64,000 bases of DNA. Source: Mariniblastus sp. (GTDB taxonomy: Bacteria; Planctomycetota; Planctomycetia; Pirellulales; Pirellulaceae). Each line of letters starts with the position of its first letter. The stretch's first letter is position 1. The position numbers and the translations under genes are program-made. The notes beneath the pieces are model-generated. The model had not been told where the DNA came from and made no database searches. It saw nothing but the letters and a program-made list of their open reading frames with translations. Shown piece after piece: positions 23,067-64,000 of this stretch. The stretch spans positions 186,001-250,000 of the forward strand of contig JAKVBF010000011.1 of assembly GCA_022447555.1 (NCBI GenBank), in the 5' to 3' direction.

Positions 23067-23679
23067 TTCGGGCAAACATGAATGGATGTCGTTTCGTGAT
23101 TTCTTTTACTACGTTTATTATGATATCTAGGTTCGATTTCTACAAAGGGCCTAATGACTTACATCGACCGATCTTTTCAATTGCTTGACTCGGCAGGTCT
23201 CCAATCCGATCAATCCCTCAATTCCGGCCATTTCTTTGACGTAAAGTTCACAAATTACAAAAGCTAGGCCAGCAGCTACCTGATGGCCCATACCCCGACC
23301 AACCAAAAGAGGACTGAAAAACGGGTAAATTTCTACAGATTCCACGGAGATTCCACTGAGAAATCGATCCTTCTTTAAAAAAGGAAACCTTCATGATCGA
23401 CCCATTGCGCCGAGATACCTGCGTCTCCCCCGGCGAGCGGCAAAACCTCAACCGAAACCGATTTTTTGGAGGCCACCAACGAGTTCCGCCGCAACACGCA
23501 CCCCTTGCTTCCAGCCGGCCCATTCAAACCGTCTCAGAGGAAATTGGCCGTCGCTCAACGCGAACACCGAATAAAACGGGGAATTCGACTATGATAGGAA
23601 ACCGCCTCGTCGCAGCTTGTCGTCTGAAAATCACAACACGCGCTGGTCTGCCAGAATCTACACCGTTTTGCAAGGCATT

Positions 23680-23710
23680 AAAAAAACCCACCGCTTGCAA
23701 AGCCAAGCGG
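23680..23710 (-). terminator. Intrinsic terminator, leftward, without an obvious gene
   Basis: Minus strand: CCGCTTG, a six-base loop, CAAGCGG, then TGGG and seven T residues. The stem is perfect over seven pairs (23691-23697 with 23704-23710). On the plus strand there is no U-tract after the stem, so the direction is clear. Confidence 0.7.
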
Positions 23711-23890
23711 CGGAGCCGAAATAAAACAAAGGCCATTTTGCAGGAATACCATCCATGCTTCTGCACAGCTCGAGCTTAACCCCACTCGATTCCCACTCGA
23801 TCAGTTGTCCAGATCTTTCGTTAAAACTGCAAGGCCCCCAATCCGGTTCAGAACCAAAGCACTTCATCGCGAGCGACCCCAGGGCCTATA
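23683..23890 (-). ncRNA. Candidate structured small RNA
   Basis: The intrinsic terminator at 23680-23710 works only for leftward transcripts, yet no leftward gene lies between it and the divergent start at 23930, so an RNA of roughly 200 nt is implied. On the minus strand GGCCTTGCAG (23837-23828) can pair with CTGCAAAATGGCC (23743-23731), and inside it TTAAC can pair with GTTAA. Further local hairpins are GGTTCTGAACC and GCTCGAGC. An AT-rich stretch near 23885-23905 could hold the promoter. I do not recognise it as 6S, SRP, tmRNA or RNase P RNA. Ends are approximate. Confidence 0.35.
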
Positions 23891-28032: not shown

Positions 28033-28947
28033 ATGGCAACTCACATGATTCGGCTTGGTACCCGCGGCAGCCAATTGGCTATGTGGCAGTCTAAATGGGT
28101 CGCAGGCGAACTTGAAAAACAGGGATGCCGCGTCGAACTGATCAAAATCCAAACGACCGGCGATGTTCAGACCGGACCGTTAGCTCAAATCGGAGGTCAG
28201 GGCCTGTTTACCAAGCGTCTTCAGCAAGCGCTGCTGGATGATGAAATTGACTTGGCGGTGCACAGCCTGAAAGACTTACCGACGCAGACCGACCCCCGTT
28301 TAACCATCGCTGCCGTACCCCCGAGAGAATCCCCCTTTGATGCTCTGGTCTCAAATCACGCTCGTTCCCTGAGCGATCTTCCCTCGGGCGCAGTGGTCGG
28401 CACGGGCAGTGTTCGCCGCATCGCTCAGCTTCGACATATTCGATCGGATCTAGAGATTCGTGACATCCGCGGCAACATCGATACACGACTTGCAAAACTG
28501 GATGCCGGTGAATTTGACGCGATCGTATTAGCTAGTGCCGGGCTCCTGAGACTATCGCTGGCCGACCGGATCGCCTATCAGTTCGCCCTCCCGGAAATGG
28601 CGCCGGCGGTCGGGCAAGGCGCCTTGGGTCTTGAAATCCGTGCCCGTGATGAAACCACGCGACAATGGCTAGAACCGTTGAATGATCCGTATACATTATC
28701 CCGAATCACTGCTGAGCGCTCGTTGCTTCAAACGCTCGAGGCCGGTTGCCTAGCACCGGTAGCAGCATGGACATCCATTGAAAACGAGGATCTTAGCTTG
28801 ACCGGCTACGTTCTAAGTGTCGACGGAAAAGAAAAAATCGAATCCCAGCATTCCGTCCCCATACGCCAATCAAAGGAGCTTGGCCGACGAGTCGGGGAGC
28901 AATTACGCCAACTGGGCGCCGATCGGTTTCTTAAAAGAAATGGTTAA
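28033..28947 (+). CDS. hemC: Hydroxymethylbilane synthase (porphobilinogen deaminase)
   Basis: Joins four porphobilinogens into hydroxymethylbilane in tetrapyrrole synthesis. Motifs: IRLGTRGSQLAMWQ at the N-terminus, DLAVHSLKDLPT with the catalytic aspartate, VGTGSVRRIAQL and DIRGNIDTRLAKLD. The dipyrromethane-cofactor cysteine sits in EAGCLAPVAAW at about residue 239. About 304 residues is the usual length. No other heme gene is adjacent. Confidence 0.96.
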   Translation: MATHMIRLGTRGSQLAMWQSKWVAGELEKQGCRVELIKIQTTGDVQTGPLAQIGGQGLFTKRLQQALLDDEIDLAVHSLKDLPTQTDPRLTIAAVPPRESPFDALVSNHARSLSDLPSGAVVGTGSVRRIAQLRHIRSDLEIRDIRGNIDTRLAKLDAGEFDAIVLASAGLLRLSLADRIAYQFALPEMAPAVGQGALGLEIRARDETTRQWLEPLNDPYTLSRITAERSLLQTLEAGCLAPVAAWTSIENEDLSLTGYVLSVDGKEKIESQHSVPIRQSKELGRRVGEQLRQLGADRFLKRNG

Positions 28948-29065
28948 TTCCTACCGCCTCTGCATAGGGTGACTGAACCCGATTTTCGCAGCTCGCCATT
29001 ATTTGGTAGAATCGGCGGTCGAAATAAAAAGAAAAAATCAGCGTCACCCAAACACGGAAAACAAA

Positions 29066-30376
29066 ATGTCGACTCTCGACAGAAACCTAGCCGAGATTGC
29101 CGCCCGTCACGGTGTTGATTTGGCTTGCGTGACCCCGCCTAGCCGTGCTTCCCGATTGGAATCGTTGCGAAAAATCATTGCCAGAACGGACGTCCCCTAT
29201 CCAATAACCCCTCAACGTCAGGAAAGGTATTTAAACGACTTTCAATCGGGCAAACTATTTGGAATCGGTACACTGAGTGAAGACATGGTGGAACTAGAAA
29301 ATTATGCAGAGTTCCAAGACTACGAGAAATACACTTACGAGGAACATTTAAGCTGGGCCTGCCTCGTAGCGGATCAACAACGCACCAAGCATCAGTTTGC
29401 CTGCCAAGAGTACTTGAAAGGAGAATCCATTTTTGAGATCGGCGGGACGGTCATCCCAGACTATTACCTTCTGAATGCCAGAATCTATCAGCAAACTCAA
29501 TGGCAACTGGCGACGGTCAATATGATCATTCCGGCGGAGCTATTTTTCACCTGCCATAGTCATCGACTGTTTCCTGTCACCACCTTCATGCGTGGCCTCG
29601 AAGTCGATTATCTGGAAGAACCCGATATTGGTCATGACGTAGCGGGGCACGTTGCGACCTTTACCATCCCGGCCGTGGCAGATGTCATGAAGAATCATGG
29701 TGACGCTCGCGATTTAATCTACGCAGAGCGGGACCAAAAACTAAAAGCGGCCGGGGACGAAGAGTCCGCTCGTCGCATCCGTGATGATGCTGAAGAATTA
29801 TTGCTTTACGCGGGGAGGATCTATTGGTTCACTGTTGAATTCGGCCTAGTCATGCAGGGTGGCCAAGTCCGTGATTTCGGTGCCGGTATCCTTTCATCCC
29901 CGGGTGAAACGACCTACAGCATTGAAAGTCGTGAATCGAATCGCATCTTGATTGATCCCTCTGACGATCATGACCTATTACGACTGGCGACCACTGACTA
30001 CCTGATCAGCGAATTTCAAAAGACCTATTTTGTGATGTCTAGTTTTGACCAACTCAAATCCCTCACTGCAGATCGAATCTTAATGGCAAGCAAACGTGCG
30101 ATGGAGCTGCCACATTACACATGGCGTGAAATCGTTCCGGGCGACAAGGTGATCGATGTGGGGGAACTGGCCACGTCAACCAATGAAAAGTACCTTCGAC
30201 TGATGCTCGACATGCCGTTAGACGACTGCCTTACCCGAGCCGCACTCCGCAATCTTCAGCTCTATTCAAAAGGGCTTTCCTCCCAGCAACTCAGCGCGTT
30301 CAAAATCCCACCCGCTGAACTCCCACAGGAAGCCTTGGAGTGGTTCAGAAATCAAGATCAAACCCCGACGACATAA
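29066..30376 (+). CDS. Biopterin-dependent aromatic amino acid hydroxylase
   Basis: Most like phenylalanine 4-monooxygenase (Phe to Tyr, non-heme iron, tetrahydropterin). Iron ligands are readable: EEPDIGHDVAGHVA gives the two histidines (residues 190 and 195), and RIYWFTVEFGLV the glutamate (258). RDFGAGILSSPGET is the family substrate loop. At about 436 residues it is far longer than the usual bacterial PheH (260-300), with an extra N-terminal part and a C-terminal tail, and the second histidine and the glutamate are 63 residues apart, about 23 more than in mammalian enzymes. I use the ATG at 29066; a TTG 21 codons upstream is open but poor. Tryptophan hydroxylase activity cannot be excluded. 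Confidence 0.82.
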   Translation: MSTLDRNLAEIAARHGVDLACVTPPSRASRLESLRKIIARTDVPYPITPQRQERYLNDFQSGKLFGIGTLSEDMVELENYAEFQDYEKYTYEEHLSWACLVADQQRTKHQFACQEYLKGESIFEIGGTVIPDYYLLNARIYQQTQWQLATVNMIIPAELFFTCHSHRLFPVTTFMRGLEVDYLEEPDIGHDVAGHVATFTIPAVADVMKNHGDARDLIYAERDQKLKAAGDEESARRIRDDAEELLLYAGRIYWFTVEFGLVMQGGQVRDFGAGILSSPGETTYSIESRESNRILIDPSDDHDLLRLATTDYLISEFQKTYFVMSSFDQLKSLTADRILMASKRAMELPHYTWREIVPGDKVIDVGELATSTNEKYLRLMLDMPLDDCLTRAALRNLQLYSKGLSSQQLSAFKIPPAELPQEALEWFRNQDQTPTT

Positions 30377-53927: not shown

Positions 53928-54373
53928 TGCAGGTAACTTCGCCGCCTATCGGGTTGGCCTTGGAAAACGCTGCTGATCGGGCAGCGGAACCCAACAAAAT
54001 CAAATTCAAACGCTTTTCCCCGATAAATTGGCACTTCTGAGACTTGTCTGTCGACTTTTCATCTGCGACTGCCCCCTCTCTCGCTTCCTCCCACTCAGCC
54101 GAGGAAGGGATTCCACCGACCCGATCAGCCAAAATCGACGAATGCTTTCGAGCGTTAGGGCCCGGCAACTTGGCCTTGTGAATTTCAAGGGAAGATTTAA
54201 GATTACGTCTTGAATTTTTCGCGTCTTTTTGGGGCTCAAAACGGAAAGTTGACCCCCGTATAATCACGCGACGAACAATTTGTTTTAGAAATTCTGTATC
54301 AAGGTTTTGTTGACTGTTTTCGGTGGCGAACCACCAAGCTTTCAAAGCTTTTATCGTAACCCATGAGTTCTCG
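53928..54373. other. Intergenic region between tgt and yajC
   Basis: 446 bp. TATAAT at 54259-54264 is a good -10 element, so yajC-secDF may have its own promoter; no clear -35 is seen. A leftward open frame across much of the gap (53905-54345) has no family resemblance and overlaps the tgt end. No terminator hairpin is obvious. Confidence 0.4.
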
Positions 54374-54781
54374 ATGGCTTCCCTTTACCAAGCATGCTGG
54401 CTGATCGCTGTTCAAATACCCGCGGGGGGCAGCGGTGCTGCTCCAACACCGGCAAAGGCTGCCGAAGAAGGTGCTGGTGGACTGTTTGGATTGGGCTTTT
54501 TTCTTCCAGCGATGCTGGTTGTGATGGTGCTGTATATCATGCTGATGCTTCGACCTCAGCAAAAAGAGCAAGCTAAAACCAAAGAAAAGTTGGCGGCGTT
54601 AAAGAAGAACGATCGTGTGGTTACCGCCGGGGGAATCGTAGGTACGGTGGTGAATACCCAGTCCGACGCCGAGTATTTGACGATTCGGATTGACGAAAAC
54701 AACAACACCAAAATGCAGATTTTAAAGCAATCCATTGTTCGCGTGATGAAAGACGACGACCAAAAGAAAAAAGACGATTGA
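54374..54781 (+). CDS. yajC: Preprotein translocase subunit YajC
   Basis: About 135 residues. One N-terminal transmembrane helix (FFLPAMLVVMVLYIMLMLRP) followed by the YajC core QQKEQAKTKEKLAALKKNDR and VVTAGGIVGTVVN, with a Lys/Asp-rich end. It associates with SecDF in the inner membrane. A short Ala/Gly-rich segment precedes the helix. The ATG at 54374 is chosen; the frame is open 17 codons more. secDF begins 79 bp downstream. Confidence 0.92.
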   Translation: MASLYQACWLIAVQIPAGGSGAAPTPAKAAEEGAGGLFGLGFFLPAMLVVMVLYIMLMLRPQQKEQAKTKEKLAALKKNDRVVTAGGIVGTVVNTQSDAEYLTIRIDENNNTKMQILKQSIVRVMKDDDQKKKDD

Positions 54782-54860: not shown

Positions 54861-57800
54861 ATGTTTGAGATGATTTCAAACAAGTGTCACTTTTTAAGCC
54901 AAAGCTTTTGGGTACTCGCTCAAACCGACGCAGCACCGGCGGCAGGCGTTCAGTGGTACCAAACAGGATTTGCCATGTTTGGGGCACTGATTTTGTTGCT
55001 ATTTCTTTCTGCTTTTTTGGGACGCGTTTTAGCGGGTTCCTTAAGAATGCCTGAATACTCTGGAAAATTGTCCGTCATTTTTGGCTGTATCCTGATTAGC
55101 GTCTTGCTGATTTCTTCCAAATGGCCACCCAAGTTTGGCATCGATCTGCGAGGTGGTATGAACCTGATTGGCGAACTCAACCTAGAAGATCTAGATGGTG
55201 GAAAATCCGATTACGGTGTGGCGACGACCACCACGGCCAAAGATATCATTCCCAACCTCGTTCGACGAGTTGATCCGTCGGGTACTCGTGAAATCATGAT
55301 CCGCCCTCTGGGAACGGACAAAATTGAAGTCACCATCCCGACTGATAGCGAGCAAGTTGCTGACGAGATCTGGGAGCGGCTGGCTAAGACTGGTTTGTTG
55401 CAATTTAGAATTCTCGTGGACTCCGCTCACTCGAATGATCCAGATCAAAGCGAGGTAGTCAAACGGGCCACCGCCATGTCCGCTCAGGGTGACAACATTT
55501 CGGTAATCCGCAATGACGATGGGAATGTGATAGGACGCTGGATTCGACTGGCCCGCGCTGATTCAGACGGCGAGGTCGCCGAAGGCGAAGTTCTAGCCGT
55601 CAAATTTGTTCCTCAAGGGACTCAATTCATTCGAGATAGCGCGTCGGGCAAACTCGTAGAAATGCAGTCCATTCCTGTAGGCAATGACGAAACGGTGGCC
55701 GGCATGAGGTTCGCCCAATGGTGGCGAGAAAATCAGCCTGGCTCCCCTCAGATCCTGATCATGGTCCCTCCCGAGGATATGAACGTCGAGGGCAAGCACT
55801 TATCGGGTATCACCACAGGAATCGACGAACGCGGCCGGCCCAGCGTCAACTTCGATCTGACAGATGACGGAAGTCTAAGAATGGGTGAATTCACCCTGAC
55901 CCATGAACCCAATACAGAAGGTCGCTATTTCATGGGAATTGTCTTGGATGGACAACTTCACTCAGCGCCGACGATTGAAGAAGCCATTTACGGTCGTGGC
56001 CGAATCACCGGAAGTTTTTCTGAACGTGAAGTCAATGATCTTGTCATCAACTTGCGGTCCGGAAAACTAGATGTCGCTCTCAACGAAAACCCCATCTCCA
56101 AACAGTTCATTGAGTCATCACTGGGACAGGAGTTGAAAGACAAAGGGATTTATGCGGTTGGGCTTTCGTTTGTTATCGTTCTGGTCTTTATGCTGTTCTA
56201 TTATCGATTCTCTGGAGTGGTTGCAACATTCGCTCTGTTGATGAACTTGTTATTGATCCTCGCTTGTATCATGGCGATCCAACAACCGCTGACACTAACC
56301 GGCTTGGCCGGATTAGTACTCACGGTGGGCATGTCGGTGGACGCCAATGTACTTATTTTTGAGCGGATCCGAGAAGAACTTGATCGAGGTGCCGCATTAC
56401 GGATGGCCATCCGAAATGGTTTCGACAAGGCGACCGTGACCATTGTTGACGCCAACGTAACCACCCTGATCACGGCAATTGTCCTCTATGTGATTGGCAC
56501 CGAGCAAATCAAAGGCTTTGCCGTCACGTTGATACTTGGAATCCTGATGAGTATGTTCACGGCAATTTATTGCTCACGAGCTATTTTCGCGATTGCCGAA
56601 CGGAAGCGTTTACTCAAAAAATTGACCATGATGCGAATCTTGGGCAAAACTGAAATCAACATCCTTGGCGCTCGGCTGATCGCTGCGGCCGTCTCGGTCA
56701 TCCTGATCGGTATCGGCGTGGCCGCTATGTTCACTTTGGGTCCCAAGATCCTGAACCATGACCTAAGGGGCGGGCAAACCGTCCGCATGGTCATGAATGA
56801 ATCTTGGAAAGGGACCACAGAAGACATTCGAAGCAAACTCGCAACAGACGATACGAAGGTCAAAGGTGAAGATGTCGATTTCACCGTATCAAAGCTCGTT
56901 TACGAGGATGAATTCAAGGATCGTGTCTTCAAAGTTGACGCAAATATCCAATCATACGATGGCAAAGGAAAAGCGGATTACGAGCAATTGGATGAAATCC
57001 TGAGCCGCGTCTTCGCGGGTGAACTCTCACTCCATCATGTAGAGGTGATCTCCGTTAACGAGGAAGGCGATCAAACCACTACTGATGACACAGAAAACCA
57101 GAGCGGTTCCACAAAGCCCGAAGACAATCCAAAATTAAGTTATGAACATCCACCATGGTGGAATCACGCTCAAATTAACGCAACCATCTTTCAAAATCTT
57201 CAGTCAATCGCTACCGCGACACTACTGAACGCCGGCTTGTTACAGGACCCTATTCCACCGGCTCAAGCACCCCCCACCACGACACCTGCGGCAGCAGGGG
57301 ACCTACCAGCGGCCGGTGCAACACAGGAACCCGCGGAGGGCCCCTCCATCGTGACAACCGTATCCGACCTGCAATTCTCACATTCCATTGCCGGTAAGGC
57401 ACTCAAGACACTCCTGAGCCAGGCGGCCGAAGACGAAGGATACGAAATCACCGAGGATCAAATTGCCGTCAAGGCAAAAGACTCTAATCCAGCAGACAAC
57501 CAGAACAAGGTGATGTCAAAAGATTGGGAAATCACCATCAAATCTAACAATCGAAAACAGATCGATACCATGTTCCAGAACTGGTCCGGTCAATTCAACA
57601 CGGCCCCCTACTTCCCAACCATCAGCGCTGTGGGTGGCCAAATTGCCAGAGACACTCAATTGCAAGCTCTGGCTGCGATCATCGCGAGCCTTATTGGAAT
57701 CATTGCCTACGTTTGGATTCGCTTCCAAAACGTAGCGTTCGGTCTCGCAGCCGTTGTGGCACTATTGCACGACGTATTGATCGTACTCGGATTCATCGCC

Positions 57801-58223
57801 ATCAGCCACTATGTCTCGGGAGGCCTAGGAATACTTGGCGTTGAAAATTTCAAGATTAGCCTACCGGTCGTTGCCGCCTTACTAACCATCATTGGCTACT
57901 CACTGAATGATACAATTGTCGTGTTTGACAGAATTCGCGAGGTCCGAGGGAAACGCCAAGAAATCACATCAGACATTGTCAACACAAGTATCTGTCAGAC
58001 ACTAAGCAGGACCATCCTCACATCGCTGACAACATTTATCGTTGTTTTCATCCTGTATTGTTTTGGGGGAGATGCCATTCATGGTTTCGCCTTTGCACTG
58101 TTGATTGGAGTCGTCGCGGGAACCTATAGCTCCGTGTTTGTTGCCTCTCCTGTTCTGCTGTGGCTAATGAATCGTGTTGGCCTGAACCCAGGTTTGCCCG
58201 AGACAGAAACCACAGCGAACTAA
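54861..58223 (+). CDS. secDF: SecD-SecF fused protein translocase
   Basis: 1120 residues. Uses the proton gradient to pull secreted proteins through SecYEG. The SecD half has an extra N-terminal helix, then FGIDLRGGMNLIG and LVLTVGMSVDANVLIFERI. The SecF half has NHDLRGGQTVRM and LTIIGYSLNDTIVVFDRIR. Twelve or more helices are visible. The first periplasmic loop of SecF (about residues 630-930) is near 300 residues, against about 100 in E. coli, and contains a Pro/Thr/Ala-rich linker (near 797-830). It closes the tgt-yajC-secDF unit and is followed by a strong terminator. Confidence 0.95.
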   Translation: MFEMISNKCHFLSQSFWVLAQTDAAPAAGVQWYQTGFAMFGALILLLFLSAFLGRVLAGSLRMPEYSGKLSVIFGCILISVLLISSKWPPKFGIDLRGGMNLIGELNLEDLDGGKSDYGVATTTTAKDIIPNLVRRVDPSGTREIMIRPLGTDKIEVTIPTDSEQVADEIWERLAKTGLLQFRILVDSAHSNDPDQSEVVKRATAMSAQGDNISVIRNDDGNVIGRWIRLARADSDGEVAEGEVLAVKFVPQGTQFIRDSASGKLVEMQSIPVGNDETVAGMRFAQWWRENQPGSPQILIMVPPEDMNVEGKHLSGITTGIDERGRPSVNFDLTDDGSLRMGEFTLTHEPNTEGRYFMGIVLDGQLHSAPTIEEAIYGRGRITGSFSEREVNDLVINLRSGKLDVALNENPISKQFIESSLGQELKDKGIYAVGLSFVIVLVFMLFYYRFSGVVATFALLMNLLLILACIMAIQQPLTLTGLAGLVLTVGMSVDANVLIFERIREELDRGAALRMAIRNGFDKATVTIVDANVTTLITAIVLYVIGTEQIKGFAVTLILGILMSMFTAIYCSRAIFAIAERKRLLKKLTMMRILGKTEINILGARLIAAAVSVILIGIGVAAMFTLGPKILNHDLRGGQTVRMVMNESWKGTTEDIRSKLATDDTKVKGEDVDFTVSKLVYEDEFKDRVFKVDANIQSYDGKGKADYEQLDEILSRVFAGELSLHHVEVISVNEEGDQTTTDDTENQSGSTKPEDNPKLSYEHPPWWNHAQINATIFQNLQSIATATLLNAGLLQDPIPPAQAPPTTTPAAAGDLPAAGATQEPAEGPSIVTTVSDLQFSHSIAGKALKTLLSQAAEDEGYEITEDQIAVKAKDSNPADNQNKVMSKDWEITIKSNNRKQIDTMFQNWSGQFNTAPYFPTISAVGGQIARDTQLQALAAIIASLIGIIAYVWIRFQNVAFGLAAVVALLHDVLIVLGFIAISHYVSGGLGILGVENFKISLPVVAALLTIIGYSLNDTIVVFDRIREVRGKRQEITSDIVNTSICQTLSRTILTSLTTFIVVFILYCFGGDAIHGFAFALLIGVVAGTYSSVFVASPVLLWLMNRVGLNPGLPETETTAN

Positions 58224-58243
58224 GCTTATAAAAAAAAGATCGA

Positions 58244-58269
58244 GCCGTTGCTTTTGCAACGGCTTTTTT
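58244..58269 (+). terminator. Intrinsic terminator after secDF
   Basis: GCCGTTGC, TTTT loop, GCAACGGC and six T residues. Perfect eight-pair stem 21 bp after the secDF stop. The convergent selenoprotein-like gene ends 50 bp further on. Confidence 0.92.
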
Positions 58270-58318: not shown

Positions 58319-58900
58319 TTACCTTTTTTCAGGGCCCCACTTTTTAATATTCTCTTCAGCCTCCACGCCAAGCGAATCTGCAATCCTAGAGATGTAGTTA
58401 AAGTAGCCGATGACTTGAACCGCGTCATGCAAGGCCCGATCCGAAAACCCAAAGGACCGGAGAGAATCAAGATCCTCTGGGACCATTTTGTATTGCTGCG
58501 TCGTCAGTTTTGCAGCAAAGGCGCAAAGCTGATGATCCGCAGGTTGCAAACCAGCCGTTCGCCAATCACTGACCACCTGATGGACCAAAGCGTCGGCCTG
58601 CTCAGCTTCCATGTCGTCAACCTCAGCACGGAGGTCGTGGGCATGCGCCTGAGTTCAGTAAGGGCAGGCCAGTTCCGCAGACACCACCGTCGCGAGCAAT
58701 TCCCGTTGGAATCTCGACAAGGGCGATTCACCGTGCATGATCGCCTTGTAGAGGACCATACTGGCCTCAAGTTGAGCGGGGTTCAGGCTCATGATGTGAA
58801 CAATGTTCCAGACCCGTCCTGAACGTTTTATCGCCTCATCGAATTCGGCCTTTAAGACACCCGTCGCCTTATCTAACGGGACCTGTTCAATCCACGCCAT
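58319..58900 (-). CDS. AhpD-like peroxidase-related protein, probable selenoprotein (CxxU)
   Basis: Read through one in-frame TGA (58657-58655) this gives a 193-residue protein of the carboxymuconolactone-decarboxylase/AhpD fold (COG2128, peroxidase-related). The first part has MAWIEQVPLDKATG, RVWNIVHIMSLNPAQL and HGESPLSRFQRELLATVVSA. The redox site is ACPY-U-TQAHAHDLRAE: Cys79, Pro80, Tyr81, UGA at codon 82, and the proton-relay histidine four residues later. Relatives have cysteine at codon 82, so UGA replaces the catalytic Cys, and AhpD-like selenoproteins are known from marine metagenomes. The downstream frame is intact to a TAA stop. The ATG at 58900 has an AGGGG ribosome site. A nonsense mutation is the alternative. 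No sel genes are in the window. Confidence 0.8.
58622..58654 (-). promoter_or_regulatory. Candidate SECIS stem-loop
   Basis: Immediately after the UGA on the minus strand: CTCA, a GGC bulge, GCATG, an 11-base loop (CCCACGACCTC), CGTGC, TGAG. Nine pairs in total (one G-U). The position, starting one base after the codon, is right for a bacterial SECIS. The apical loop does not clearly show the E. coli GU pattern, so this is tentative. Confidence 0.45.
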
Positions 58901-59117
58901 AACTACCCCTTTTACCAACCGTTCGTTATTAGGACCTTAAATTGATATCACTTTTATCGCTAATCTGGAGAATGTGCGCTAGATCTCAACGGCCCATAAG
59001 AAACCTCTAAAGACCGGCACCTTGTTATTCCGAGCACTAACTACGATACCACCATTAGAAATAATCTTATCAGCTAGCGTTCCATAGGTCGCCGGAAAAC
59101 CCAAACGGGAATTTGTT

Positions 59118-60077
59118 ATGACAGGCTGGATTGCCAAATTACTCGTCGGATCGATTCTAATTTCCGGCGGCTTTCTAATCAGTCGCCTATTCCGACTAAG
59201 ACGTCGTCGGCCCAAAACAACGCCTGCTGCACATCCAGACGTCCAATCCATCGATACCGCTTCGCGGATTGAACAAAGCGCACCCCATGAATGGCAAGTT
59301 GAAAAAAGTAAACTGCTCGGCAAACTGCATATATTTCAGGCACTCTCGGATGATCTGATGGCCCATCGCGACCAACAGAACGAGAGGCAACGGGAACTGG
59401 AAAACGAACTAAATCGAAGTCGTAAAAACCTCGCACAACTGTGTGATGAACGAGATAAATTAGCAAATGCATTGAAACAACTTGCATCCGAAACGGATCA
59501 TTACCAGAAGGAAATTGAGCGACATATCGACGAGCGAGATGACGCATTTGCCCAAGGTTATGAGCTTGTGGAACGCATTCAGGCCGAAATACAACCGCGG
59601 CTACAATCTTTAATGAATCAGCGAGATACAGCAAACGAACAACTCAATCGCGCGCGTCTCGAACTCGAACACGTAAAGACCGAGCAAGTCCAGCGTGATG
59701 AAGTGAACCGAGAACCCCAAGCAAATTCAGATTCCTACCCGCGAATCATGAAGTCGGAACGTCGAACGTTGGGGCAGGGGAAACCAACATCGACTTCCGA
59801 ATCGCTTACCTCCGACGATCCATTGCTGGGCGTGGTGTTCAACCGACCACCCGAATTCACTGACGATCTAAAAAAGATCTCCGGAATTGCTGGTGTACTG
59901 GAATCGCGACTGAATGAGATCGGCATCTACACGTACAAACAGATTATTGGTTGGAACGAAATCGCTATCGCGGAAATATCGAAGCGCCTCGCTTTCAAAG
60001 ATCGGATTGAACGTGACCAGTGGCAACCTCAGGCCAGCTCGCTTTACTTAGACAAATATGGCAGCCGGGCCGCCTAG
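59118..60077 (+). CDS. Membrane-anchored coiled-coil protein with C-terminal H3TH domain
   Basis: About 319 residues. An N-terminal transmembrane helix (WIAKLLVGSILISGGFLI) and an Arg-rich stop are followed by a long coiled coil (about 70-215, for example RELENELNRSRKNLAQLCDE). The C-terminal helix-hairpin-helix/H3TH domain is DDLKKISGIAGVLESRLNEI with IYTYKQIIGWNEIAIAEISK and RLAFKDRIERDQW. This domain is found in many proteins annotated as flap-endonuclease-like or in NADH dehydrogenase subunit E extensions; it probably binds DNA or proteins and has no clear nuclease residues. Unknown function. Confidence 0.75.
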   Translation: MTGWIAKLLVGSILISGGFLISRLFRLRRRRPKTTPAAHPDVQSIDTASRIEQSAPHEWQVEKSKLLGKLHIFQALSDDLMAHRDQQNERQRELENELNRSRKNLAQLCDERDKLANALKQLASETDHYQKEIERHIDERDDAFAQGYELVERIQAEIQPRLQSLMNQRDTANEQLNRARLELEHVKTEQVQRDEVNREPQANSDSYPRIMKSERRTLGQGKPTSTSESLTSDDPLLGVVFNRPPEFTDDLKKISGIAGVLESRLNEIGIYTYKQIIGWNEIAIAEISKRLAFKDRIERDQWQPQASSLYLDKYGSRAA

Positions 60078-62332: not shown

Positions 62333-62678
62333 TACATCTTTTCATTGAGACAAATGACGTTTGTTAAATCGTAGAACAGGGTAAAAAAACCGTCAAATTC
62401 AGTTTTGAATAAGGAGTGCATCAAATCGACTGGGAATACGTCGGCGATTCGATAGAAATCCCACAAAAAAGAAGGGATTGAATGGGAAAAATGTGAAAAA
62501 AGAGATTTAGAAAACTAGAACGTGATGATTTGGGTTGCCCTTTGGCATTTTTCGACCGAAAATACAAATACTGCCTTAAAATTTGGTGAGCGGACAGTCT
62601 TCCAATCCGCAAAACTGAGTCGACGACATTTTCGATACAAAGCTTGGCTCCAAGCTCGGGAAACAGGAACCCACGAAT
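62333..62678. other. Divergent intergenic region, no gene seen
   Basis: 346 bp between the secreted hydrolase-like gene (leftward) and the vWA gene (rightward). It is AT-rich throughout and must carry both promoters. No hairpin, tRNA or coding frame with a ribosome site is seen. Confidence 0.4.
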
Positions 62679-64000
62679 ATGATTAAACGTTTGCGAAGGT
62701 GGTTACAGGTTAAAACAGGCCGCGTCGAGACACCGATCGATGGAGACGCGCCGTTTTGGGTCGTGAGCGTTGGATTTCATCTGATCCTGCTTGTCCTGCT
62801 GGCCCGTATCATCATGCCCGCTGAAAAGCCGAGCGATCTCAAATTGGTGGTCAATGCGAGTGAACAAATCGATCTTGTCGAGCTCCCTCCCGAAGTTGCC
62901 TTTGACGAAGAACCAACCGAACCGTTGGGATCCAACGATGCCGAGTCATTTGAACTAGCCAACCAAGAGGCGCCCGAATTAGCAATCGAGAACGAAGTCA
63001 TCGAAGAATTCGACATGCCTGTAATGGAGGAGCTTGGTGAAATCGCTTCTGAAAACGAAAATCTGTTTTCAGAAACCGCCGAAGTCATGACGACTGTTGC
63101 GAAGACCGGGGCGGCGGGTTTCAGCGTCAAGGGTGCCGCTGGAGCTGTGGACCGAATGACCGAAGAAATTCTACTCTCTCTGCAGACACGCAAGACGACC
63201 GTTGTCTGGATGTTTGATCAATCAGCGAGCTTGCTTCGACAGCGCGCGGAAATTACGGAGCGGTTTGAAAAGATTTACACCGAACTCGGCATGCTTCAGG
63301 CGGCTGGCGACAACGCATTTTCTAAACACGATGATCGACCTCTACTGACGCAAGTTTGGGCCTTTGGTCAATCGATCAACCCGATGCTGGAAGAGGAGAC
63401 GGACGACTTGGAAGTGATCAAAGAATCAATCACTCGAATCCCTCGAGACAACACCGGTATAGAGAATGTTTTTTCCACGGTCTTGGAAGGTGTCGATCGC
63501 TTTAAAAAAGATCGGCGGATCAACCGGGCGACCGGACAGCGCAATCGCAACATCATGTTTATCGTTGTTTCGGATGAATCGGGTGACGACTCGATGCGAC
63601 TAGATGATGCCGTTGAAGCCTGTAACAAGTATGAAATCCCCGTTTACGTGATTGGTGTCCCCGCTCCGTTTGGTCGTGACACGACGTTTGTGAAATGGGT
63701 GGACCCAGACCCTAAATACGATCAAGAACCACAATTTGCTGAAGTTTCACAAGGTCCAGAGTCCTTGTTTTCTGAACGACTGAAACTGGAATTCACTGGT
63801 GGTGACTTTGACGATCTGGAAATGATCGATTCCGGGTTTGGCCCCTTCAGTTTGACTCGCCTCTGTTTCGAAACGGGTGGCATCTACTTTGCGGTGCACC
63901 CCAACCGTCGGGTTGGCAGAGTTCGCCGAACCGATACGAAAGCCTATTCGGCCGATTTAAGGTATTTCTTCAAGCCGGATAACATGCGGAAGTATCGGCC
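62679..64000 (+). CDS. Membrane-anchored vWA-domain protein (truncated by window end)
   Basis: An open frame from the ATG at 62679 to the last base, at least 440 residues, with no stop in the window. A short basic start is followed by one transmembrane helix (FWVVSVGFHLILLVLLARII), an acidic Glu/Asn-rich segment (about 55-140), and a von Willebrand A-like domain beginning TTVVWMFDQSASLLRQR, where the DxSxS-type metal site reads DQSAS. NIMFIVVSDESGDDS and VYVIGVPAPFG are later strands of that domain. The protein probably monitors or assembles an envelope complex. The partner genes must lie downstream. Confidence 0.8.
   Translation, partial: MIKRLRRWLQVKTGRVETPIDGDAPFWVVSVGFHLILLVLLARIIMPAEKPSDLKLVVNASEQIDLVELPPEVAFDEEPTEPLGSNDAESFELANQEAPELAIENEVIEEFDMPVMEELGEIASENENLFSETAEVMTTVAKTGAAGFSVKGAAGAVDRMTEEILLSLQTRKTTVVWMFDQSASLLRQRAEITERFEKIYTELGMLQAAGDNAFSKHDDRPLLTQVWAFGQSINPMLEEETDDLEVIKESITRIPRDNTGIENVFSTVLEGVDRFKKDRRINRATGQRNRNIMFIVVSDESGDDSMRLDDAVEACNKYEIPVYVIGVPAPFGRDTTFVKWVDPDPKYDQEPQFAEVSQGPESLFSERLKLEFTGGDFDDLEMIDSGFGPFSLTRLCFETGGIYFAVHPNRRVGRVRRTDTKAYSADLRYFFKPDNMRKYR

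Follow-up and report, generated by a model that had tools for sequence, protein, structure and literature searches.

Two leftward half-frames in the 64,000-nucleotide stretch of Mariniblastus sp. DNA analysed here (the window) are best explained as a single gene for an AhpD-like (TIGR01926) selenoprotein of 193 residues (58319..58900, minus strand), in which an in-frame TGA at codon 82 would be read as selenocysteine (Sec). We put the probability of this explanation in full, the proposed chemistry included, at about 0.9 on the basis of the sequence comparisons described below, and the insertion of Sec at codon 82, taken by itself, appears nearly certain. The original prediction that UGA is read as Sec at this position is strongly supported by the Sec machinery of the genome, the conserved TGA, the selection acting on the frame and the putative SECIS element.

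One reading frame and its product

The frame runs from an ATG (codon 1, at 58900, minus strand) to a TAA stop ending at 58319 and contains exactly one internal TGA (58655..58657, minus strand) and no frameshifts, in agreement with the initial description of one leftward frame divided by a single TGA. ORF calling with Table 11 returns two ORFs, 58655-58918 (from a TTG start, with the ATG internal) and 58319-58612, just as a standard annotation had been expected to report two fragments. A Shine-Dalgarno-like AGGGG was seen by eye 5 nt upstream of the ATG (58906..58910, minus strand), and an intrinsic terminator-like hairpin with a T run, matching the consensus, lies 3' of the gene (58243..58264, minus strand); three terminator-like sites were found in the 1 kb scanned, compared to 0.8 expected. 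A secD/secF fusion (54861-58223) faces the gene in convergent orientation, and on the other side lies a divergently oriented ORF (59118-60077) for which no Pfam match was found, an arrangement that, together with the terminator-like hairpin, suggests a single-gene unit. No conserved gene neighbour was found among 81 loci, the largest ORF cluster, with clusters judged by eye, being present in 11 of them.

Read through the TGA, the product is homologous to a single domain along almost all of its length. Residues 2-181 match TIGR01926 ('peroxidase-related enzyme') with 122.8 bits (cut-off 81.8) and PF02627 is matched with 30.6 bits (cut-off 23), consistent with the view that the two halves make up a complete AhpD-like peroxidase-related protein. 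All 14 members of an alignment of this family (A1) match TIGR01926 at E <= 1e-5. The TGA aligns with the second Cys of the CxxC motif, in the same column in relatives, and the sequence around it reads C79-P-Y-U82-TQA-H86 (C79 to U82, 58655..58666; H86, 58643..58645; both minus strand), so that C79, U82 and the histidine at +4 are placed as had been claimed. The relay histidine position, H86, has the spacing of Cys51/His55 in PA0269, and the relay glutamate position, E67 (58700..58702, minus strand), 12 residues before C79, has that of Glu36/Cys48. E67, C79, Y81, U82 and H86 are invariant in all 14 aligned rows, each of which therefore carries the CxxC/CxxU pair together with the Glu and the His.

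Fold, active site and proposed chemistry

An AlphaFold2 model built from the 14-row alignment (pLDDT 81.5) has its top PDB match in 6K40 of D. radiodurans (TM 0.75), with other peroxidase-related proteins also matching. The peroxidase-related structures 6K40, 2PFX, 3C1L, 2OYO and 2PRR are homologous to the gene product over most of the chain, of which 6K40 and 2PFX have Cys where the gene has Sec (two alignments). The relay described for PA0269 comprises Glu36, Cys48, Tyr50, Cys51 and His55, and that of M. tuberculosis AhpD comprises Glu118, Cys130, His132, Cys133 and His137 (PMC3141380). Both proteins (M. tuberculosis AhpD as 1GU9) share the Glu-x11-Cys-x2-Cys/Sec-x3-His spacing with the gene product but carry Cys instead of Sec, at 14-15% (AhpD) and 23-24% (PA0269) identity in the fold alignments. 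The relay spacing and the fold match thus put Sec82 at the position of the second Cys of CxxC. In AhpD-type enzymes it is this second Cys that attacks the peroxide.

The gene product falls outside several neighbouring families. It scores 15.1 bits against TIGR00777 (AhpD), far below the cut-off of 191.95 bits, and sestrins (PF04636; 28.5 bits, under the cut-off of 29.4) and the debrominase Bmp8 are weak matches of the AhpD-type fold. NF041238 (AhpD_rel_CFYUT), which corresponds to 'hypothetical protein 1' of the Sargasso survey (PMC13188914), likewise describes an AhpD-type CxxU selenoprotein; the gene matches its positions 151-340 of 357 with 75.6 bits, below the 175-bit equivalog cut-off, and is without the first ~150 positions of the model.

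We propose that SelB, acting on the SECIS hairpin just past the UGA, would bring Sec-tRNA(Sec) to codon 82, so that translation would run on to the TAA at 58319. Sec82 would serve as the attacking selenolate of the C79-x-x-U82 pair, activated by the E67/Y81/H86 relay, and may reduce peroxide or another oxidised substrate, after which C79 would form a selenenylsulfide in resolving the product, and the enzyme would be reset by a reductant of the thioredoxin, glutathione or lipoamide type. With regard to the substrate, we lean towards peroxide.

The selenoprotein might instead work mainly as a disulfide reductase or as an adaptor of AhpC rather than as a direct peroxidase, given that M. tuberculosis AhpD is an adaptor for AhpC and that PA0269 reduces H2O2 only weakly (PMC3141380). 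However, Sec at the second CxxC position and a complete E/C/Y/U/H relay would suit attack on a peroxide, and such a role is considered possible but rather unlikely. A reductive dehalogenase-like selenoenzyme, in which Sec82 removes a halogen within an AhpD fold as a deiodinase does, is very unlikely. Bmp8 has been likened to deiodinase, it turns up in the fold comparison (6OHI/6OHJ, TM 0.63-0.64), and the title of 6OHJ names a C82A variant with bound bromopyrrole. Nevertheless, Bmp8 ranks under the peroxidase-related proteins, with 16-18% identity compared to 28-34% for 6K40, 2OYO, 3C1L and 2PFX, and the neighbours of the gene in the window are one SecD/SecF protein and one without a Pfam match; no paper linking Bmp8, debrominase and deiodinase was found in the literature search.

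Conservation, selenocysteine machinery and lineage

A search of 241 genomes of the same family, the window's own included, gave a match in 150, and TGA occupies the same alignment column in all 30 of the family loci first taken from it, one of which is the window's own. Among 20 lower-scoring and more distant family loci chosen by hand, 17 have TGA and three have TGC. At the phylum level, 137 of 392 genomes were matched with A1 at E <= 1e-25; TGA is present in 30 of 30 phylum loci (one being the window gene again), and a hand count of the 150 phylum matches listed gave 142 with TGA and eight with none, the best 82 all carrying it. Searching the contigs of named genomes with A1 yielded at least 590 relatives, and in the best 80 of 590, which were kept, TGA stands at that codon in 80 of 80, as C-x-Y-U with His at +4. 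The submitters' labels of these best 80 of 590 include Chloroflexota (39), Gemmatimonadota (30), Planctomycetota (4) and Latescibacterota (2), with one each for Actinomycetota, Deltaproteobacteria and Acidobacteriota. A single-protein search of the same contigs returned 21 pattern stretches and no confirmed relatives. The sharing of the TGA column is far beyond chance.

When all rows are pooled, 160 of 170 carry Sec, nine Cys and one Leu, a count in which the Cys and Leu rows are enriched because one locus set was fetched mostly for lacking TGA, and in which two rows are repeats (L154 of the window gene and L105 of L024). As A1 was built from Sec forms, searches with it favour the Sec clade. 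In three loci (L134, L136 and L124) a second in-frame TGA lies 105-111 codons past the Sec codon, inside the aligned domain. Another locus (L188, G361:C155:92878-94033) holds tandem copies, one carrying TGA and the adjacent one TTG (Leu) in its place, the latter possibly an inactive or regulatory duplicate.

Selection was compared on the two sides of the codon. Over 21 pairs the finite dN/dS values are at most 0.16 before and at most 0.30 after the TGA, synonymous sites being saturated on one or both sides in six of the 21, where the ratio is printed as 0.00; in several pairs the value for the second half somewhat exceeds that for the first (e.g. 0.27 vs 0.10). When the window gene is compared with three copies from Gemmatimonadota, both halves of the frame give a pN of 0.22-0.25 and a pS of 0.71-0.89. 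These values indicate that purifying selection acts on both sides of the TGA, and the relatives show no decay after codon 82; the retention of UGA by all 30 family loci and by the best 80 of 590 named relatives is what the original prediction had implied.

The Sec machinery that this prediction presupposes was found in full in the window genome (62 contigs, 97.5% complete). One tRNA-Sec (68.6 bits), the sole one of 13 matches above the Rfam cut-off, is named tRNA-SeC with anticodon tca by ARAGORN, and SelA (569 bits), SelB (357.9 bits) and SelD (273.2 bits) are present, SelD on the window's own contig. The SelD match (L020, G000:C3:79091-79999, outside the window) makes up the C-terminal portion of a frame of 733 residues and has the active site MKCLGCG, which is a CxxC form and not a Sec form. 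Judged by eye, the N-terminal part of this frame resembles an NADH dehydrogenase, and the whole looks like an NADH-dehydrogenase/SelD fusion; Ndh-SelD fusions with the CxxC form have been reported (PMC2398784).

Among the matches listed, the weakest being unlisted, 61 family genomes have a TGA copy, and SelB occurs in 56 of these compared to 58 of the 180 others (Fisher p 5e-17). Of the named genomes, those behind 50 of the 80 kept loci were searched, and SelB exceeds the cut-off in 48 of the 50, two being without it at that score. SelB is below the threshold in five of the 61 family genomes (G044, G141, G227, G228 and G229). G227 (99% complete) has tRNA-Sec, and its contig C42 (L192) is collinear with G226 and G234 up to the first ~50 bases of C42; SelB and then SelA begin in G226 and G234 at the point where C42 ends, so that the apparent absence of both from G227 is due to an assembly break at the contig edge. 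SelA and tRNA-Sec are present in G044, a SelA fragment lies at a contig end in G141 (71% complete), and G228 is 69% complete. G229 (91% complete) keeps the TGA copy with SelB, SelA and tRNA-Sec over the cut-off all absent, an exception that is unexplained.

In a quick tree of 168 different rows, the window gene falls inside an 84-row clade (SH-aLRT 99) with Sec in 84 of 84 rows of the sample, and within it groups with 17 Gemmatimonadota rows (86), while a separate clade of 28 rows (100) takes in 25 of the 30 family loci taken first. This placement is likely to reflect horizontal transfer, with moderate support. Eight of the nine Cys rows fall in more distant subfamilies, and the remaining one (L183, TGT), on a long branch, is placed inside a Sec group and may represent a Sec-to-Cys change. 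The Sec labels on the tree need at least six changes, or three if only the starred branches are trusted, and some placements are unsure because of long branches. One sequence from a contig labelled Singulisphaera (L102) groups tightly with Roseiflexaceae (Chloroflexota) sequences, the contig being possibly mislabelled or misbinned. A bolder and improbable interpretation is that of an old Sec-locked lineage, spread by horizontal transfer over Planctomycetota, Gemmatimonadota, Chloroflexota and others, in which Cys would be barred since the chemistry needs selenium, be it reductive halogen removal or some other reaction outside ordinary peroxide reduction.

AhpD-like CxxU selenoproteins are already in the literature. 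The Sargasso Sea survey of 2005 contained 27 AhpD-like (COG2128) CxxU sequences (PMC1088965), the GOS survey of 2008 listed 299 as 'AhpD-like 1' (PMC2398784), two appear under AhpD-like (COG2128) in a table of PMC1794560, and a 2026 review gives TIGR01926 with CxxU as a selenoprotein model (PMC13188914). The initial statement that such proteins are known from marine metagenomes is borne out by PMC1088965 and PMC2398784, and the statement that some planctomycetes decode Sec by PMC4807772, which reports Sec use in planctomycetes and in whose main text 'AhpD' is absent. The COG2128/TIGR01926 CxxU family shares with the gene the NCBIfam model, the CxxU motif and a bSECIS after the UGA (PMC1088965, PMC2398784, PMC13188914), so the gene adds to a known family and is not a new kind; of the label 'probable new selenoprotein', the selenoprotein stands and the novelty is weakened by the family having been published (PMC13188914). 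Unlike the marine reports, the gene here sits in a planctomycete genome with its own machinery and in a clade that is all-Sec in the sample. Searches of the open-licence PMC literature found neither an account of AhpD-like proteins forming an all-Sec clade that spans Gemmatimonadota, Chloroflexota and Planctomycetota nor a paper on an AhpD selenoprotein in a Gemmatimonad. Since standard calling splits such genes, counts of selenoenzymes in planctomycetes, Gemmatimonadota and Chloroflexota are probably too low. Most selenoproteins of the Sargasso survey were described as sporadic compared to widespread Cys homologues, and against that pattern a clade that is all-Sec over several phyla in the sample lends itself to testing at what point Sec can no longer be replaced.

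The hairpin after the UGA and the reading of codon 82

A putative bacterial SECIS hairpin (58618..58637, minus strand) follows the TGA, with a stem of seven pairs (CGACCUC/GAGGUUG), a 6-nt loop (CGUGCU) with G at position 2, and a loop start 24 nt after the UGA. Its energy is -8.1 kcal/mol isolated and -12.8 for 45 nt. The hairpin satisfies the bSECIS constraints of PMC13188914, which ask for a loop of 3-9 nt with G at its first or second position, a stem of 4-16 bp, a distance of 16-37 nt from the UGA and MFE <= -7.5. Taken alone it is unexceptional in stability, with a z of -0.62 (56 nt) and an equal or greater stability in 6% of synonymous recodings.

The relatives are more telling. A hairpin in the register of the window, with a loop of 5-6 nt, is found in 124 of 160 Sec forms compared to none of nine Cys forms and not in the single Leu form; by a general rule, any hairpin is found in 152 of 160 Sec, three of nine Cys (all out of register) and 0 of 1 Leu forms. 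Of 127 Sec loci, 111 fit the anchor bases of the register and gave 104 distinct sequences for a covariation test, in which the wobble base of the Asp codon and the first base of the Val/Ile codon paired with it covary (68/1/2/7, p 1e-7, uncorrected for ancestry). The table leaves out 26 rows whose partner base is T, mainly from the group with the 5-nt-loop register. The 15 other wobble positions tested gave p >= 0.007. Codon choice inside the hairpin of the 127 genes is strongly skewed: CTC makes up 86 of 100 Leu codons compared to 25% elsewhere in the same genes, CGC one of 92 Arg codons (41% elsewhere), GAG 111 of 115 Glu codons (52%) and GGT 25 of 25 Gly codons (17%). These codon p-values are uncorrected for ancestry, and four control positions outside the stem-loop gave p from 0.0002 to 1 and are not perfectly neutral. 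Taken together, the comparison indicates a bacterial SECIS hairpin that is conserved across relatives, with covariation and strong codon choice.

Reading of the UGA as Trp or Cys, by reassignment or near-cognate suppression in the absence of a Sec system, would accommodate G229, which retains its TGA copy with no SelB, SelA or tRNA-Sec above the cut-off, but has a negligible probability, as the machinery of the window genome is complete and tracks the TGA copies, the ten non-TGA homologues have Cys in nine cases, Leu in one and Trp in none, and the hairpin fits the bSECIS model. Equally negligible is a nonsense mutation (pseudogene) or an assembly base error, which would agree with the two fragments given by standard ORF calling, whereas the same TGA is shared by every one of the 30 family loci and by all 80 named relatives kept (best 80 of 590), the downstream half is under purifying selection and a conserved hairpin follows; the presence of TGA at codon 82 in other genomes excludes a base error. 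Pseudogene, base error and code reassignment were thus rejected on the shared TGA, the selection, the hairpin and the Sec machinery, in favour of Sec at codon 82.

A rough scan of the window for other frames split by a single TGA, which is no survey since it missed the AhpD-like gene because of an overlapping spurious ORF, gave four, at 23251-23775 (minus strand), 28817-30373 (plus strand), 54182-54778 (plus strand) and 62579-63217 (minus strand), all of which are probably due to chance.
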